Part shown: piece after piece, positions 8,431-41,572 of the stretch | Layout of the letters: each line of letters opens with the position of its first letter | Numbering within the stretch: position 1 is the stretch's first letter | Source: Marinobacterium halophilum | GTDB lineage: Bacteria > Pseudomonadota > Gammaproteobacteria > Pseudomonadales > Balneatricaceae | Reading direction: 5' to 3' | Assembly (NCBI RefSeq): GCF_003014615.1 | Contig: NZ_PYGI01000011.1 | Span: 1-64,000 of the forward strand | Length of the DNA: 64,000 bases | Notes under the pieces: model-generated | Told to the model about the DNA's origin: nothing | The model's input: only the letters and a program-made list of their open reading frames with translations | The model's database searches: none | Program-made: the position numbers and the translations under genes

Positions 8431-11187
8431 TCAGTGCGCCTGTTCCCAGTTATCCCCAACGCCCGCTTCGATCAACAGCGGTACCGCCAGTTCGGCTGCC
8501 TGTTCCATCAACGGTTTTACCTGTGCATAGAAGTTATCCACTTCTGACTCACGCACTTCGAACACTAATTCATCGTGAACCTGCATAATCATGCGGGCAT
8601 CCATCTCACCTTGCTCAAGCCAGTTATCCACAACAATCATGGCGTACTTGATAATGTCTGCGGCCGTACCCTGCATCGGCGCATTGATCGCGGTGCGCTC
8701 AGCGGCCTGACGCTTCATCGGGTTGCGGTTGTTGATATCCGGCAGATAGAGGCGACGGCCAAACAGCGTCTCAACATAGCCCTGATCACGTGCCTGCGCA
8801 CGGGTTTCATCCATGTAACGCTGCACCCCGGGGTAGGTGGCGAAGTAATGATCGATATAGGTCGCCGCTTCCTTGTTGCCAATGCCCAGCTGCTTGGCAA
8901 GACCAAAGGCCGACATGCCGTAAATCAGGCCGAAGTTGATCGCCTTGGCGCTGCGACGCTGATCAGCAGTAACATTATCCACAGTCGTGCCAAATACCTC
9001 TGCAGCCGTCGCCTTGTGGATATCTTCATCGTGGCGGAATGCATTCAGCAGACCTTCATCGCCAGACAGATGAGCCATGATGCGCAGTTCGATCTGTGAA
9101 TAATCCGCCGCTACAATCTTGTACCCCTCGGGGGCAACAAACGCATTACGGATGCGTCGACCTTCCGCCGTGCGTACCGGGATGTTCTGCAGATTCGGTT
9201 CCGAAGATGACAGTCGTCCGGTCGCCGTGACCGCTTGATGATAAGAGGTATGGATGCGGCCCGTGCGCGGATTGATCATCTGCGGCAGCTTATCGGTGTA
9301 GGTACTCTTGAGTTTGCTCAGACCGCGCTGTTCGATCAACAGCTTCGGCAACGGGTACTCCAGCGCCAGCTCCTGCAACACCTCTTCAGCGGTAGAAGGT
9401 GCGCCCTTGGGTGTCTTCTTCTTCACCGGCAGACCCATTTTTTCAAACAGGATCGCCTGCAGCTGCTTGGTAGAGTTGAGGTTGAACTCTTCACCGGCCA
9501 GCAGATAGGCTTCACGCTCGATCTCCTGCAAGCGTATCTCCAACTCGCGACTCTGCACACCCAGAATCCTGGCATCCACCAGCGCACCGCGATATTCCAT
9601 CCGCGACAGCACCGGAATCAACGGCCGTTCGATCTCTTCGAACACCTTGAGCAAATTGCCTGCTGCCGCCAGCTGCGGCTGCAGCTTCTGGTGCAAGCGC
9701 AAGGTGATATCGGCATCCTCGGCCGCATAGGGAGCGGCTTGCTCCAGCTCGATCTGGTTAAACGTGAGCTGCTTCTTGCCCTTGCCGGCAATATCTTCGA
9801 ATGACGTTGTGCTCATACCCAGGTGACGCTCAGCCAGCGTATCCATGTCATGACGGCTGGCGGTCGAGTTGAGCACATAGGATTCCAGCATGGTATCTGC
9901 ACCTATGCCCTGCAACTCGATGCCGTAGTGGCGCAGCACATTCATGTCGTACTTGATATGCTGGCCGATCTTTTTCAGTTCCGGGTCTTCCAGCAGCGGT
10001 TTCAGCTGTGCCAGTACAGCATCACGGTCGAGCTGCTCAGGTGCGCCCATATAATCATGCGCCAGCGGTACATACGCGGCCTTGCCCGGTTCCACCGCGA
10101 AGGAGATGCCGACCAACTGCGCTTCCATATAGTTCAGGCTGGTGGTTTCTGTATCGACGGCAAATGCCTCGGCGGTCTTCAACCGTTGCAGCCAGACATC
10201 CAGCGCAGCCTGCGTCAGCACCGTCTCGTATTCGGTCTCGATTGCCGGCTCGCTCACAGCGGGTGCTGCAGCCTCGGGGCCAGTGACAGAACCGGCATCC
10301 AGCTCACGTACCCAACTCTTGAACTCGTACCGACCAAACAGCTCCTTCAGCGCTTCGGTATCCGGTGCCGGCAAGCCGATGTCCTGCAGTGAAATATGCA
10401 GCGGCACATCGGTCTTGATCGTCGCCAGCAGATAGGACAGTTCCGCCGCGTCGCGATGCTCTTCCAGTTTTTTCGGCATCGACTTGGCACCACGAAAACC
10501 CAGCTCGGGAATCTTGTCCAGGTTTGCATACAGGTCACTGATCCCGCCAATCCCCTGCAGCAGTGCCAGCGCCGTCTTTTCGCCCACCCCCGGCACACCG
10601 GGAATGTTATCGACCTTATCCCCCATCAGCGCCAGCAAGTCGATCACCAGATGCGGTGGCACACCAAACTTCTCCTCGACCCCTGCCACATCCATCTTGG
10701 TATCGTTCATGGTGTTGATCAGGGTGACATGTTCGTCCACCAGCTGGGCCATATCCTTGTCCCCGGTGGAAATCACCACCTCGCGGCCTGCCGCACTGGC
10801 CTGGCGCGCCAGTGTGCCGATGACATCATCGGCCTCGACCCCCTCTTCAACAAACAGTGGCAGGCCCATGCCCCGCATGATGGCATGAATAGGTTCAACC
10901 TGAGTGCGCAGGTCATCCGGCATCGGCGGGCGCTGTGACTTATACTCGGTATAGATCTCGTCGCGGAAGGTCTTGCCCTTGGCATCGAAAATCACCGCGA
11001 CCGGACTGCCCGGATAATCCTTGAGCAGCCGTTTCATCATGGAGGTCACCACACGGATAGCCCCGGTGGGTGTACCGTCTGCGGTACGCAAATCCGCCTG
11101 CTGGGAAGCAAAAAAAGCGCGGTATAAATAGGAGGAGCCATCCACCAGAATGACAGGGGCCTGTTGTTCGCTCATGGGAGTATCCAT
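8431..11187 (-). CDS. polA: DNA polymerase I
   Basis: PolA fills gaps in repair and removes Okazaki primers. The product (about 918 residues) has the 5'-3' exonuclease domain ([45 protein letters not shown]), the 3'-5' exonuclease with intact DTETTSL, and the polymerase with DYSQIELR, the O-helix [14 protein letters not shown] and [10 protein letters not shown]. All three activities look intact. I prefer ATG at 11187 because a GGAA lies upstream; 11232 and 11175 are alternatives. Confidence 0.97.
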
Positions 11188-35283: not shown

Positions 35284-35718
35284 AGTTGATAATACCCGAA
35301 GGACGGCATGATCGCCTATTCGTACGCCGGATGGACGGCCGTCGCCCTGCTGGTTCAGCACTTAATCTATACACAGGTTTAGGCACACCCTCAGCACCTC
35401 CTGTTGATAACAAAAAACACACCGGAGATGCTGGATCAAACCATGGTGGCCTGTTGATAACCATGGCTTACTTCTATCCCCATTACCCTTGCATGGACCT
35501 GTGCATAACCTTTGCACAAGGTCGTTACATCAGGATTGAACCTGCAGCCAGCCTGAGACGAAGAAAACCGGTTGTTTTTTGATCAGCTGCTGGGATAAAG
35601 CTGGTTATGCACAACTTACACCCAAATATTTTGATATGCCATCCCGGTTCCTGTTATCCGGGATAGTCCTGCCTAAGCCTGTGTGTAAAAAAGAATGTGC
35701 ATAACCTTCTGTGGATAA
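35284..35718. other. Cluster of DnaA-box sequences in a gene-free region
   Basis: The stretch 35138-35876 has no convincing gene. Inside it are four exact TTATNCACA boxes: 35500-35508, 35605-35613, 35696-35704 and 35710-35718 (one plus, three minus). Two TTATCAACA boxes lie at 35402-35410 and 35452-35460. Weaker matches are at 35367-35375 and 35680-35688 (one mismatch) and 35284-35292 (two mismatches). This density far exceeds chance. No strong AT-rich unwinding element and no Dam-site cluster is obvious, and no dnaA or gidA is near, so a datA-like titration or regulatory site is more likely than an origin. Confidence 0.7.
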
Positions 35719-35876: not shown

Positions 35877-37322
35877 ATGCGAACACGACACACGCTAAAA
35901 GGACTTGCGCTGGCCTCCGGCTTACTACTGCTCTCCGGTTGCCAAACACTTTCCAGCAAACAGAGTCTGGATGATTTCAATCAGCAGTACGGACAAGGCA
36001 ATTATCAAGCAGCGGCCGATTTTGCCCTCACGTCCGGCGGTATCAATGCCGAAGGCGAGGGCGGTAACCTGCTCTGGTCACTCCAGGCCGGCTCGGCCCT
36101 CAAGGCCAGCGGCCAGTTCGCCTACAGTACCAAGGTGTTCGATCACGCTGAAACCATGATGAAGGCGGAAGATACCGAGAATATCGGCCGTAAAGGCCTT
36201 GAGAAAGTCACAGCGACTCTGATCAACAACAACCTCAATCGCTACGACCCGACAGTCTATGACGGCGTCATGGTGAACACCTACAAGGCCTTGAACAGTA
36301 TCTTCCTGCAGGATCTGCAGGGCGCACGTATCGAGTTCAACCGTGCCGCCGACCGCCAGCGCCGTGCCGAAGAAACCTTCAAGACGCGAATCGAAGAACA
36401 GAAAGCGAAACTGGCCGAGACCCGCGAGCAAACCGAAGGTGAGCAGGCCGCCAACTCACAGCTCGACTTTGGCAAAAGTGAACAGGCCTCGCGCCAGGCA
36501 ATTGATGAAGCTTTTGCCGAGCTGGATGACTGGAAAGCCTATCCCGACTTCGTCAATCCCTATACCGATTACCTGCACGGCCTCTACTTCATGCTGGCCA
36601 GCGCAGACCGTGCCGACTACGGCAAGGCGCGCGAGTCCATGCGCCGTGTCCGCGGTATGGTCTCGGACAACGACGCTGTCAAAACCGATTACATGGTGAT
36701 CAACAAGCTGCGGACCGGAGCCTGGCGCAAGCACAAGCTTAATCCCGCGGTTTGGGTCATCTTTGAAAACGGTGAAGCGCCTACAATCGACGAGATCCTG
36801 GTGCCGCTGCCGTTGTTCCTGATCAGCGACAAGGTCGAGTACGCGCAGATTGCACTGCCGAAACTGAAAGAACGTGCACGCGCCTATCCTTATCTGGAAA
36901 TCCGTTCCGGCGGCAAGCGCCTGGGCAAAACCGAGCTGTTGGCCAGCATGGATCGGGTGATCCAGACCGAGTTCAAGCGTGAATTCCCGCTCAAGGTTAC
37001 CGAGGCTATTGCCAGCACCCTGACCAAGGCCTTTATTCAGTATCAAGCGAAGAAGGAACTGGGGCTGGCGGGTAGCCTGGTAGCAGGGATCTATCAAGCC
37101 GCCACCACTCGTGCCGATACCCGCAGCTGGAGCAGCCTGCCTAAGGAAGTTCAGGTTTCGCGTGTGCGTAAACCCGCCAACGGTACGCTGGAATTGCATG
37201 CCCCCGGACTGTCGGAACCGCTGAAAGTCGAACTGCCAAAAACCCGTTTTTCTGTTATTTATGTCAAGGCAAGTGCACCAGGAAGCACACCTGTGTATCA
37301 GGTCGCAGGCTTTGACGCCTGA
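35877..37322 (+). CDS. COG3014-type lipoprotein
   Basis: A 481-residue lipoprotein (lipobox LSGC, Cys near residue 21) at the head of a five-gene operon. The N-terminal half has TPR-like helices (GNYQAAADFAL, STKVFDHAETMM). A charged coiled coil lies about 165-200, then a mixed domain containing VWVIFENGEAPTIDEILVPLPL. I recall it as the uncharacterised COG3014 family; no function is known. Start at 35877, with AAGGAA nine bases upstream; the frame is open back to 35817 but without a signal peptide. The DnaA-box cluster lies just upstream. Confidence 0.8.
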   Translation: MRTRHTLKGLALASGLLLLSGCQTLSSKQSLDDFNQQYGQGNYQAAADFALTSGGINAEGEGGNLLWSLQAGSALKASGQFAYSTKVFDHAETMMKAEDTENIGRKGLEKVTATLINNNLNRYDPTVYDGVMVNTYKALNSIFLQDLQGARIEFNRAADRQRRAEETFKTRIEEQKAKLAETREQTEGEQAANSQLDFGKSEQASRQAIDEAFAELDDWKAYPDFVNPYTDYLHGLYFMLASADRADYGKARESMRRVRGMVSDNDAVKTDYMVINKLRTGAWRKHKLNPAVWVIFENGEAPTIDEILVPLPLFLISDKVEYAQIALPKLKERARAYPYLEIRSGGKRLGKTELLASMDRVIQTEFKREFPLKVTEAIASTLTKAFIQYQAKKELGLAGSLVAGIYQAATTRADTRSWSSLPKEVQVSRVRKPANGTLELHAPGLSEPLKVELPKTRFSVIYVKASAPGSTPVYQVAGFDA

Positions 37323-37343
37323 TTATTCGTAAGGAGACGAACC

Positions 37344-37760
37344 ATGCAGATTCGTATCGGCGTGCTGGCAACAGCCGCCCTTGCGCTGTGGGGCTGCCAG
37401 ACTCAGCCACAACAACCCACACAATATCCCCAGCTTCAGATCGGCCCTCGTGCCCAATCATATCTGCAGATCGAAGCGGTACAGGAAGGCTATGCCTCCA
37501 GCAACCTGCTGCGTGCCGGCGTACGCCTGTACAACCGCAGCAGTCAGGAACAGACCCTGCGCTACCGCTTCAGCTGGTTTGATGCCAACGGTTTCGAACT
37601 CAAGGGCATGGCCGGGCGCTGGGAGCAACAGCCACTGCGTCCCGCCGAACCGGTGATGATTGATCGTGTGGCGCCCAGTCCCAAAGCGGTCAGTTACCGC
37701 ATTCAGTTATTTGATCCCCGCACACCTGTAGCCAACTCTACACAAGGAATTGATGGATGA
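37344..37760 (+). CDS. YcfL-family lipoprotein (DUF1425)
   Basis: A 138-residue lipoprotein (ALWGC lipobox, Cys 18) with a single beta-sandwich domain: RAGVRLYNRSSQEQTLRYRFSWFDANGFEL. In E. coli ycfL lies beside lpoB, and the same pairing is seen here with a 4-base overlap (ATGA). Function unknown. SD AAGGAG precedes its ATG. Confidence 0.83.
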   Translation: MQIRIGVLATAALALWGCQTQPQQPTQYPQLQIGPRAQSYLQIEAVQEGYASSNLLRAGVRLYNRSSQEQTLRYRFSWFDANGFELKGMAGRWEQQPLRPAEPVMIDRVAPSPKAVSYRIQLFDPRTPVANSTQGIDG

Positions 37761-38374
37761 GCCCTCGTAACACTCTGATCAAGGCACTCGCACTGACCAC
37801 CGTCCTCGGCCTCGCGGCCGGTTGTACCCCGCAAACCCGGCTGCTGCCACAGGGCGGCGTCGACCAGCCGGTCACCATGGGCCTGAGCGGATCCGATTTT
37901 GCCCAGGCCGCCTCCGATGCCGTGCAGTCCATGCTCACCTCCGGTGCCGTCGACCGTACCGACGGCAAGAAGAACATCATGGTGGTGTCCACGGTACTCA
38001 ATGACACCATGCAGCGCATCGATACCGACCAGCTGGTGAAGAAGATCCGCGTGGACCTGTTGCGTAGCGGCAAGGTGCTGACCACCACTGCAATTGGCCT
38101 CAACGGTGCTGAAGACAAGATGACTCAGGCCTATGCCGAACTGAGCCAGTCGCGCAAGGTCGACCGCTCAACCGTCGTTCGTCAGCGCCTGGCCGCACCG
38201 AACATGAGCCTGTCCGGCAAGATCATTCAGCGTAACAACCGCGTCGACGGCAACAAGCAGTTGGTGGAGTACTACTTCCAGCTGACCCTGACCGACCTGT
38301 CCAACGGTTTGGCCATCTGGGAAGATGAAACACCGATCCGCAAGCTCGGTAGCGCCAAGGGAACCTCCTGGTAA
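37757..38374 (+). CDS. lpoB: Penicillin-binding protein activator LpoB
   Basis: A 205-residue outer-membrane lipoprotein (LAAGC lipobox, Cys about 23). LpoB spans the periplasm to stimulate PBP1b. Family features: GLSGSDFAQAASDAVQSML, VVSTVLNDTMQRIDTDQL, LRSGKV and a C-terminal strand set LVEYYFQLTLTDLSNGLAIWEDE. The disordered stretch after the Cys is short compared with E. coli. Whether the partner is PBP1b here is inferred. Confidence 0.85.
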   Translation: MSPRNTLIKALALTTVLGLAAGCTPQTRLLPQGGVDQPVTMGLSGSDFAQAASDAVQSMLTSGAVDRTDGKKNIMVVSTVLNDTMQRIDTDQLVKKIRVDLLRSGKVLTTTAIGLNGAEDKMTQAYAELSQSRKVDRSTVVRQRLAAPNMSLSGKIIQRNNRVDGNKQLVEYYFQLTLTDLSNGLAIWEDETPIRKLGSAKGTSW

Positions 38375-38388
38375 CGTAAAGGAATACG

Positions 38389-39852
38389 ATGATGAAAATT
38401 CTTTTTAAAAAGACCGCGCTGGCATTTGCACTGAGCAGCCTGGCCCTGGGTGTTCATGCACAGGGCACCACCGCAGCAACTGAGCGTCAACCTGAAACAC
38501 CATTGACAGCACCTCAGGCAGAGGCCCCTCAGACAACTGCGCAGACAGAAGCCGTTGAGATTGCTGCCGCAGACGCCGCAGAGCCTGCACCGGTCGATCC
38601 CGGTATGAAGTTGATGGAACAGATCGATGAATGGAAATATGGTGCCGGCGCTGGCCTAACCGAACGCGCTGACAATAGCGCTATTTTCATGGCTGAAGGC
38701 ATCGCCTTTGTCAAAGTCACGCCGGATGCAGCTGACTGGGCTGATCACCGTCTGATGGCCTACAAAGAAGCACTGATGCATGCCCAGGCACAGTTTATCG
38801 AGTTTGAAGGCATCAGCACGCGCGCTGAAACCGTCAGCAAGTTATTTGAAGACAAGAGCCAAATGCCCAAGTTCTTGCCCAAAGAACTGCAGAGCTCCAG
38901 CAAGCTCGAGGAAGTGCTGAATAAGGCCGTTGCACTGGCCGGTGGCAAACTGGATGAGCAGCTCAGCGAGCTGGGCATTAACCCGGATGAGTTCACTGCA
39001 GCCCCGCCAGAAAAACGTGCCCGTCTGCTTGAGAATTCCATAAGTGAGCAGATCTCGACCCGCGCCCGCGCCAGCCTGACCGGTTTGATGCCAGTCAAAA
39101 CCTTTGAAGCCAATGATGCTCAAGGCCGACACGCCATTGCCGTGATTGTGGTCGCTTCGGACAAAATGCGCCAGTTTGTGTACGACATGAAGCAAAGCAA
39201 GGGCGATCTGGCACCCAACCCTGAAAAGGTCGGCGGTCCCTCACTGCGTGAGCGCTTTAACGACAACAAAACCGCACTGATTCACGAGTTCGGCATCCGT
39301 AAGATGTTCGATGAAAATGGCTATCCGGTGCTAGTCTCCTTTGGCCAGGCAGGTACCGGCTATAACGGCTCTGATTTCAACCGCCAGATGAATGCACGCA
39401 AGGGTGCCTTCCTGTACGCCAAGGGTGATGCCTACGCCAACTTCGCCTACTTACTGAACTCTGTTGGTAATGCCGAACTCAGTACCAGCAGGAAAAGCAT
39501 GGATGCTACCGACGGCGTAGTACGCGCTGAAAGAGATAGCGTGGTCGAGTCGGAAGAACAACGCATCGAAATGGTGAAGGCGATCAACAATGAGATTTCT
39601 GCCCGTGGCAGTATCTCCGATCTGCCGGGCACCCGCCAGTTGATTCGCTGGACGGCAAAGCACCCGCTGCATGGCAACGAGATCAACGGGGTTGTCTATG
39701 TATGGCACCCTGTTTCGGAGCAGAACGCCCGCGACATGCGTGATTTCAAACCCAAGCGCACTGAACAGGTTCAAATCCAGGAACGCAAAGCCACTACCGG
39801 CACCTCCGGCGTCAGCCAGAGCCGTGACCTGATGTCAGCTGACGATTTCTAA
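38389..39852 (+). CDS. Exported protein of unknown function in the LpoB operon
   Basis: A 487-residue protein I do not recognise by name. A cleavable signal peptide (KKTALAFALSSLALGVHAQG) is followed by an Ala/Pro/Thr/Glu-rich disordered stretch (about 25-75). A long domain follows, with segments such as AEGIAFVKVTPDAADWADHR, QAQFIEFEGIS and ALIHEFGIRKMFDENGYPVLVSFGQ; the last part resembles the protein before it in having mixed alpha/beta segments. No membrane span. Always read with its neighbours: 14 bases after lpoB and 10 bases before the CsgG-like gene. Confidence 0.75.
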   Translation: MMKILFKKTALAFALSSLALGVHAQGTTAATERQPETPLTAPQAEAPQTTAQTEAVEIAAADAAEPAPVDPGMKLMEQIDEWKYGAGAGLTERADNSAIFMAEGIAFVKVTPDAADWADHRLMAYKEALMHAQAQFIEFEGISTRAETVSKLFEDKSQMPKFLPKELQSSSKLEEVLNKAVALAGGKLDEQLSELGINPDEFTAAPPEKRARLLENSISEQISTRARASLTGLMPVKTFEANDAQGRHAIAVIVVASDKMRQFVYDMKQSKGDLAPNPEKVGGPSLRERFNDNKTALIHEFGIRKMFDENGYPVLVSFGQAGTGYNGSDFNRQMNARKGAFLYAKGDAYANFAYLLNSVGNAELSTSRKSMDATDGVVRAERDSVVESEEQRIEMVKAINNEISARGSISDLPGTRQLIRWTAKHPLHGNEINGVVYVWHPVSEQNARDMRDFKPKRTEQVQIQERKATTGTSGVSQSRDLMSADDF

Positions 39853-39862
39853 GGACGGAACC

Positions 39863-41056
39863 ATGCGATCATTACTGAAAACGCTGGTAGCACTAACCGC
39901 TCTCGTCTGGACCTGCTTCAGCTTCGCGGCAGAGCAGGTCGTGGACGCGGCGGGCTATGGCAGCAGCCGCAATCAGGCGATCAGCGATGCCCTGGTACAG
40001 GGCTTGCGTCAGGCTACCGGGGTCAGCATCGACAGCCGCGAGGTGATGCAAACCCTATCGGGTCGTGCCAGCGTCAGCAACAATGAAGGTGAGCAGTTCA
40101 ACAGCTCGTTCGAAGTTGCACAGCGCGGTGATCTTAGCCTGAAAACCAAGGGTCTGGTGTCACGCTACGACATTCTCGCGGTAGAGCCACAGGATGACGG
40201 CAGTTTCCGTGCCGATGTCAGCGTACATGTGCTCAAGTATGACAAGCCGGGTTTGCCCGCCGATAGCCGCCGCACTCTGGCGGTGATGCCATTCCACAGT
40301 GACAAGCGCAGCTTCTCACTATTGGGTGACAATACGGCGGCAACCAAGCTGGAGTCCGAACTGCGCAATCGCGTACTCGATCAGTTCACCCAGTCCCGTC
40401 GGATGAACGTGCTCGACCGCGAATTCGGTGCCGAATTCCAGGCAGAAAAAGCGATTTGGCTCAGCGATGATGCCGCATTGGCGGAGAAAGCCAAAACCGG
40501 CAACGTACTGGGTGCCGACTATATCGTCGTTGGCAATATCCGCAATGTGCGCAGCACCCGACATGTGAAAACCCTGCAGCTGACCGGCGAAACCATCGTC
40601 AGTTATAGCGGCAGCGCACAGCTGGACTACAAGATCGTACTGGCCGCTACCCGACAGGTGAAATGGTCCGACTCGATCAATCTGAAGTTCGGTGACAGCG
40701 ATATCCGCGCCATGCTCAAGCAGTACGGCTCGTCCCAGGCCGGTATCACCGCCGAACTGGCCGAGCAGCTGGCCCAGAAGGCCTTGGCCAATATCTACCC
40801 GATGCGCGTCGTGGCGGTAAAGGGCAAGACCGTCGTGCTGAACCAGGGCGGAAAAACGCTCAAGAAGGGCGACCTGCTGGACGTGTACTTTTTGGGTGAC
40901 GAGATGTTCGATCCCTACACCAACGAGTCACTCGGTCAGCTGGAAGAGAAGATCGCGGTGGTCAAAGTGGTCAGAGTCAGTGCGAAAACCACCTATGCCA
41001 AGGTGGTAGAGGGCGATGCCGAACTGATCGAACAGGACTTCATCGTGCGTCGCTAA
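39863..41056 (+). CDS. CsgG/HfaB-like exported protein
   Basis: A 397-residue protein with a signal peptide ending FSFAAEQ and no lipobox Cys. The N-terminal part (VVDAAGYGSSRNQAISDALVQGLRQATG) resembles FlgT/LPP20-like modules. The middle has the CsgG/TolB-N pattern: RRTLAVMPFHSD, SELRNRVLDQFTQSRRMNVLDREF, then NVLGADYIVVGNIRNV. The C-terminal beta domain (VVAVKGKTVVLNQGGKTLKKGDLLDVY) is FlgT-like. No lipid anchor or pore-forming segment is obvious, so curli secretion is unlikely. LpoB shares this TolB-N fold, which hints at a joint complex. Confidence 0.75.
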   Translation: MRSLLKTLVALTALVWTCFSFAAEQVVDAAGYGSSRNQAISDALVQGLRQATGVSIDSREVMQTLSGRASVSNNEGEQFNSSFEVAQRGDLSLKTKGLVSRYDILAVEPQDDGSFRADVSVHVLKYDKPGLPADSRRTLAVMPFHSDKRSFSLLGDNTAATKLESELRNRVLDQFTQSRRMNVLDREFGAEFQAEKAIWLSDDAALAEKAKTGNVLGADYIVVGNIRNVRSTRHVKTLQLTGETIVSYSGSAQLDYKIVLAATRQVKWSDSINLKFGDSDIRAMLKQYGSSQAGITAELAEQLAQKALANIYPMRVVAVKGKTVVLNQGGKTLKKGDLLDVYFLGDEMFDPYTNESLGQLEEKIAVVKVVRVSAKTTYAKVVEGDAELIEQDFIVRR

Positions 41057-41320: not shown

Positions 41321-41407
41321 TGGTGCAGATGGGGAGACTCGAACTCCCACGCCCGTGAAGGCACTAGCACCTGAAGCTAGCGTGTCTACCAATTCCACCA
41401 CATCTGC
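41321..41407 (-). tRNA. tRNA-Leu(CAG), copy 1
   Basis: 87-base class II tRNA on the minus strand with a long variable arm; anticodon loop TTCAGGT (CAG, reading CTG); T-arm AGTTCGAGTCT; encoded CCA. The visible sequence is the same as copy 2. Confidence 0.96.
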
Positions 41408-41485
41408 ATTGGGTGTGACGTTTTAACGTGCGTTACCACTCAAATTGTCGCTTTCGAAGGGCCTTTTATCCAGTCGGACAAGAGG

Positions 41486-41572
41486 TGGTGCAGATGGGGA
41501 GACTCGAACTCCCACGCCCGTGAAGGCACTAGCACCTGAAGCTAGCGTGTCTACCAATTCCACCACATCTGC
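41486..41572 (-). tRNA. tRNA-Leu(CAG), copy 2
   Basis: Same 87-base class II tRNA as copy 1, 78 bases upstream of it in transcription order. Both probably come from the promoter at 41589. Confidence 0.96.

Follow-up and report, generated by a model that had tools for sequence, protein, structure and literature searches.

The stretch of DNA analysed here (the window; 64,000 nucleotides of a Marinobacterium halophilum contig) carries, between the start of one lipoprotein gene (35185, reverse strand) and the next lipoprotein gene (35877, forward strand), an interval without a convincing gene, in which just two overlapping open reading frames of 61 and 98 aa were seen. This interval contains a cluster of DnaA boxes (35367..35718, no strand assigned), supported by box counts, random placements and a comparison across the genus, which is the densest in the genome and which we interpret as a probable datA-like locus. 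Four exact TTATNCACA boxes lie within 219 bp, at 35500 (-), 35605 (+), 35696 (-) and 35710 (-), and with two TTATCAACA boxes at 35402 (-) and 35452 (-) they span 35402-35718; an earlier note on this DNA had described four exact boxes and the two TTATCAACA sequences in gene-free DNA, and their positions were confirmed. Read from znuA to mutY, the orientation used for all elements below, the cluster begins with an upstream pair of exact boxes, TTATCCACA at the znuA-side end (35710..35718, -) and TTATGCACA as a direct repeat after a 5 bp spacer (35696..35704, -), followed by an additional box, TTTTACACA (35682..35690, -), which fits TTWTNCACA and aligns with a box of the relatives that is mostly degenerate there, and by another exact TTATGCACA (35605..35613, +). 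An IHF-like motif, AAACAACCGGTT (35566..35577, -), precedes box B, an exact TTATGCACA (35500..35508, -), and box C, CTATCCCCA (35474..35482, +), which is degenerate here and reads TTATCCCCA or ATATCCACA in several relatives. Boxes with one mismatch complete the array: box D, TTATCAACA (35452..35460, -), the second TTATCAACA (35402..35410, -), and two extra boxes, TTAGGCACA (35379..35387, +) and CTATACACA (35367..35375, +). The DNA of the cluster is somewhat AT-rich (46% GC vs about 57%).

Exact boxes number eight in the 64-kb window, against 1.08 expected from shuffles, and the genome total of TTATNCACA is 142 in 3.65 Mb, or about one per 26 kb with all sites listed. The cluster is the sole place in the genome where four of these boxes fall within 300 bp. 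In this genome-wide comparison with oriC, of the kind that the earlier note had proposed, a density of three boxes per 600 bp was reached elsewhere by oriC, by pyrE/5S rRNA and by three intragenic places (polA, metE and one more). The three exact boxes of polA lie inside its coding sequence (window 8624-9103). Because TTATCCACA is over-represented throughout the genome (84 occurrences vs 13 for the reversed control), box counts need to be judged against that background, and the cluster stands out even so. This excess is what speaks for the cluster having arisen by chance where TTATCCACA is so frequent, a reading that is hardly credible, since placing all 142 sites of the genome at random never brought four together in 219 bp (0/20,000 trials), and that is refuted by the retention of the cluster in eight genomes.

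The operon of lipoprotein genes next to the cluster (35877-41056; DUF1425, LpoB-like, DUF6844 and others) begins with a gene at 35877..37322 (+), a neighbour outside the element that is present in four of the eight genomes of the genus, and two tRNA-Leu(CAG) genes (41321..41572, -) read toward the cluster from beyond the operon, which in the window genome (G000) places 5 kb of operon between the tRNA-Leu genes and the cluster. Four genomes have the operon beside the cluster (G000, G002, G004 and G007); a search for its first gene found none in the other four (G001, G003, G005 and G006), all of which retain the cluster, and in these operon-less genomes tRNA-Leu reads toward the cluster and directly adjoins it. 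The opposite flank varies too, being occupied by a GGDEF-EAL gene, by another GGDEF gene or by an FAD oxidoreductase. The interval from mutY to tRNA-Leu/znuA (28.9-41 kb of the window, and its counterparts) is variable in gene content and resembles an insertion hotspot on the side of a tRNA.

On the contig, dnaA lies at 83.3-84.9 kb, about 49 kb from the cluster, and mnmG/gidA begins at 90.0 kb; the earlier note had reported neither dnaA nor gidA, which is true of the window, but both genes are encoded just past its right end. The gene order past dnaA, with names taken from translations, is rnpA, yidC, mnmE, an intergenic region, mnmG, rsmG, parA, parB and the atp genes, and the mnmE-mnmG intergenic region holds nine boxes at ≤1 mismatch, three of them exact. 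Over the first 90 kb or so of the contig the GC skew stays below or close to zero, and from about 92 kb onwards it is positive, the skew switch and the mnmE-mnmG-parAB neighbourhood occupying 89-94 kb of the contig. As the skew flips at mnmE-mnmG, oriC is placed there, and the cluster therefore lies about 54 kb from oriC, which is about 3% of a replichore; the corresponding distance is ~51 kb in G001 and ~75 kb in G007. Along the contig the GC skew shows no change at 35 kb, and none of the genes next to the cluster within the window was recognised as coding for an initiator. Hda is encoded in the genome; SeqA was not found in it. A 315-aa frame that is not dnaA itself matches the C-terminal domain of DnaA weakly (G000:C9:43939-44058; L002).

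Eight genomes of the genus (G000-G007) were compared by synteny; they are related, so the counts are not independent. Within 14-104 kb of DNA near the locus per genome, boxes at ≤1 mismatch were counted in windows of 400 bp, and the richest box window falls in the znuA/tRNA-Leu to mutY interval in all eight genomes, with 10 (G000), 6 (G001), 5 (G002), 8 (G003), 6 (G004), 4 (G005), 8 (G006) and 7 (G007) boxes, where for G002 and G004, whose contigs break, the interval was inferred from shared neighbours. The boxes of G001 and G006 are degenerate, their top 400-bp windows containing no exact box. As a positive control, the same method applied in a 100-160 kb scan around the origin also finds oriC and the dnaA promoter. 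Sampling the complete genome of G001 in forty-six 20-kb pieces (920 kb) gave three windows with at least six boxes, namely oriC, this locus and the pyrE-rRNA locus. In these samples exact TTATNCACA thins out with distance: up to 1 Mb from dnaA there are ~1.1-1.3 per 20 kb, and farther away ~0.11 per 20 kb (Spearman -0.45, p=0.002). A DNA similarity search with the intergenic region gave two weak matches in 57 genomes; it finds little because the sequence of the cluster has diverged, and synteny was used instead. A comparable intergenic cluster at this position was absent in five genomes of other genera, whose secondary clusters are mostly intragenic, and on this sample of five the locus appears to be genus-specific. 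One of these five, G009, does carry a group of DnaA boxes between genes at a distance of 7.9 kb from dnaA (G009:C1:7919-8191; L136), a possible analogue.

With box B as the anchor, the elements of the eight genomes align over a block of 210 bp that contains no indels and has a median pairwise identity of 47%, and its two best-conserved 9-base windows are boxes B and C (75-79% identity vs 42% for the rest); owing to the anchoring on box B, the unbiased test of conservation is box C alone. These two boxes face each other 17 bp apart in 8/8 genomes. The pattern WAWCAACnnnTT, an IHF consensus derived from E. coli GeF-seq (PMC8407004), was tried after the block had already been seen to be conserved; it occurs in five of the eight elements, against 0.02 expected per element, a probability that is partly post hoc, and is missing from the other three. 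In G000, G004, G006 and G007 the motif precedes box B by exactly 69 bp. Neither the standard IHF consensus WATCARnnnnTTR nor the Fis consensus gave consistent sites across the elements. We treat IHF binding at the cluster, suggested by this motif, as a lead and not as a result; the fixed spacings of 17 bp (B/C) and 69 bp (IHF-like motif) suggest that an ordered complex may form there.

The earlier note had considered four roles for the cluster, namely titration of DnaA as at datA, reactivation of DnaA as at DARS, an origin, and a tie of the downstream envelope operon to the cell cycle. In the last of these DnaA would regulate the transcription of the divergent lipoprotein genes or of the envelope operon, and the position of the boxes between two divergent lipoprotein genes in the window (35185, -; 35877, +), together with the operon adjoining the cluster in G002, G004 and G007, is in accord with it. 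However, the cluster is kept in the four genomes in which the first gene of the operon was not found, operon-bearing relatives in other genera have few or no boxes upstream of the operon, and in G005 the cluster comes directly after the adjacent EAL gene, on its 3' side and away from its promoter. As the operon is present in only four of the eight genomes, the cluster is not primarily its promoter; a tie to the operon as the main role is unlikely, half of the genus keeping the cluster with no such operon next to it, and what is conserved is a cluster in a fixed position rather than a promoter. A secondary origin, or the remnant of a plasmid-derived origin at a tRNA integration site, could account for the DnaA boxes, the lowered GC content, the tRNA-Leu neighbour and the variable gene content, but a full oriC exists at mnmE-mnmG, where the skew flips while it stays steady at 35 kb, the genes adjoining the cluster in the window include none recognised as an initiator gene, and the element occupies the same place in 8/8 genomes, which makes an origin at this site very improbable.

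A DARS-like element regenerating ATP-DnaA would share with DARS2 the many boxes and the IHF-like motif. DARS-like sequences are known in many proteobacteria and have already been reported across the group (PMC5742627, PMC10380432). The DARS core as measured in E. coli consists of a box, 5 bp, an inverted box, 3 bp and a box; this geometry has no match on the contig of the cluster at up to 3 mismatches, whereas DARS-like cores were found at two other places in G000 (C1:168493-168527, beside nth; C6:10733-10767, beside a cation-efflux gene), both with counterparts in most or all genomes of the genus, and we therefore give a DARS function of the cluster very little chance. The core pattern is present in 86 of 96 genomes of the order, far fewer matches being obtained with the reversed control, and some of the matches may be boxes of oriC or of the dnaA promoter. 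A different alternative is that the cluster is a purely passive sink for DnaA, in which neither IHF nor geometry nor any effect on the nucleotide plays a part. This would be a minimal version of the datA-like reading, with which it overlaps; the features that are kept are box number and position, and a second cluster (pyrE-rRNA) and the enrichment of boxes in the 1 Mb nearest the origin agree with it, but the conserved 17-bp and 69-bp spacings suggest an ordered complex, and we regard titration of this bare kind as possible, if somewhat doubtful.

The boxes, their density, their conserved position, the internal spacing and the independence from neighbouring genes, all observed directly, are probably best explained by an autonomous, non-coding, origin-proximal DnaA-binding locus with a mode of action like that of datA in E. 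coli. The datA-like option fits because the cluster is origin-proximal and non-coding, its place is kept across the genus, and the boxes are its best-conserved positions; from the sequence we infer that DnaA and IHF bind at the cluster and that it exerts a negative control on initiation, whereas a promotion of ATP hydrolysis by the cluster would be a guess. In such a mechanism, the firing of oriC would be followed almost at once by the copying of the cluster by the fork (54 kb), and the strong and weak boxes, now present in two copies, would capture DnaA; IHF might bend the stretch that separates the outer boxes from the B/C pair. DnaA would thereby be titrated and its ATP hydrolysis perhaps promoted, the amount of free or active DnaA at oriC would fall, and oriC would not refire.

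A second DnaA-box cluster lies between pyrE and an rRNA operon (G000:C8:146489-146568, L005 about 9990-10070; G001:C1 about 105151-105550, L224). Boxes at this locus also occur in G002, G004 and G005; none were found in G007, and the contigs end early in G003 and G006. At the pyrE contig end of G000 the 5S gene is truncated, which is why a search for rRNA families gave nothing at gathering score; in the complete genome of G001 the 5S gene is intact. With the pyrE-rRNA cluster, the locus in the window is one of a small set. We offer as a speculation, which we ourselves rather doubt, that the genus evolved its own origin-proximal loci for withholding DnaA (tRNA-Leu; pyrE-rRNA), unrelated by descent to datA and placed downstream of stable-RNA genes, so that transcription of tRNA and rRNA could set the availability of DnaA in a genome in which SeqA was not found. 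If this were true, DnaA control coupled to stable RNA would be a convergent design and not a peculiarity of E. coli. A cluster near oriC that is conserved in position and divergent in sequence would let dosage-timed withholding of DnaA be tested as a general control, and the same locus would allow such a test where SeqA seems to be missing. The datA locus is well studied in E. coli; for the order to which this bacterium belongs, the open literature searched yielded no report of a similar locus.

Compared with the genome's own oriC (the mnmE-mnmG intergenic region), the cluster has a similar box density, including boxes of the TTATGCACA type, but it lacks a skew switch and is not beside dnaA or mnmG. 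With DARS1 and DARS2 of E. coli it shares its non-coding nature and several DnaA boxes, and with DARS2, which has IHF sites, the IHF-like motif, but the defining core geometry of these elements is missing at the cluster and found elsewhere in the genome. Box clusters of Bacillus subtilis and Streptomyces coelicolor have been described as datA analogues outside oriC that repress untimely initiation (cited in PMC10950094); they belong to unrelated phyla and loci, and we liken the present cluster to them by description, claiming no common ancestry. The datA locus of E. coli (the DDAH locus) consists of clustered DnaA boxes and a single IHF site, and it lies on the origin side, downstream of the tRNA-Gly genes glyV-X-Y (PMC10950094, PMC5742627). 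Its defining traits include an IHF site placed between essential boxes, transcription that reads through from the tRNA operon, and the stimulation of ATP hydrolysis on DnaA, by which initiation is repressed. The cluster differs from it in its flanks (znuA/tRNA-Leu/mutY vs orn/glyVXY/queG), in its distance from oriC (~54 kb vs ~470 kb), in the order of its boxes and in having no consistent match to the standard IHF consensus, and in the window a 5-kb operon parts it from the tRNA genes; since box order, distance from oriC and gene context all differ, the cluster is not an orthologue of E. coli datA. What the two have in common is a non-coding cluster of DnaA boxes that lies outside oriC but in the origin-side part of the chromosome, a possible IHF site between the boxes (here a sequence motif), and, in the relatives without the operon, a place downstream of tRNA genes.
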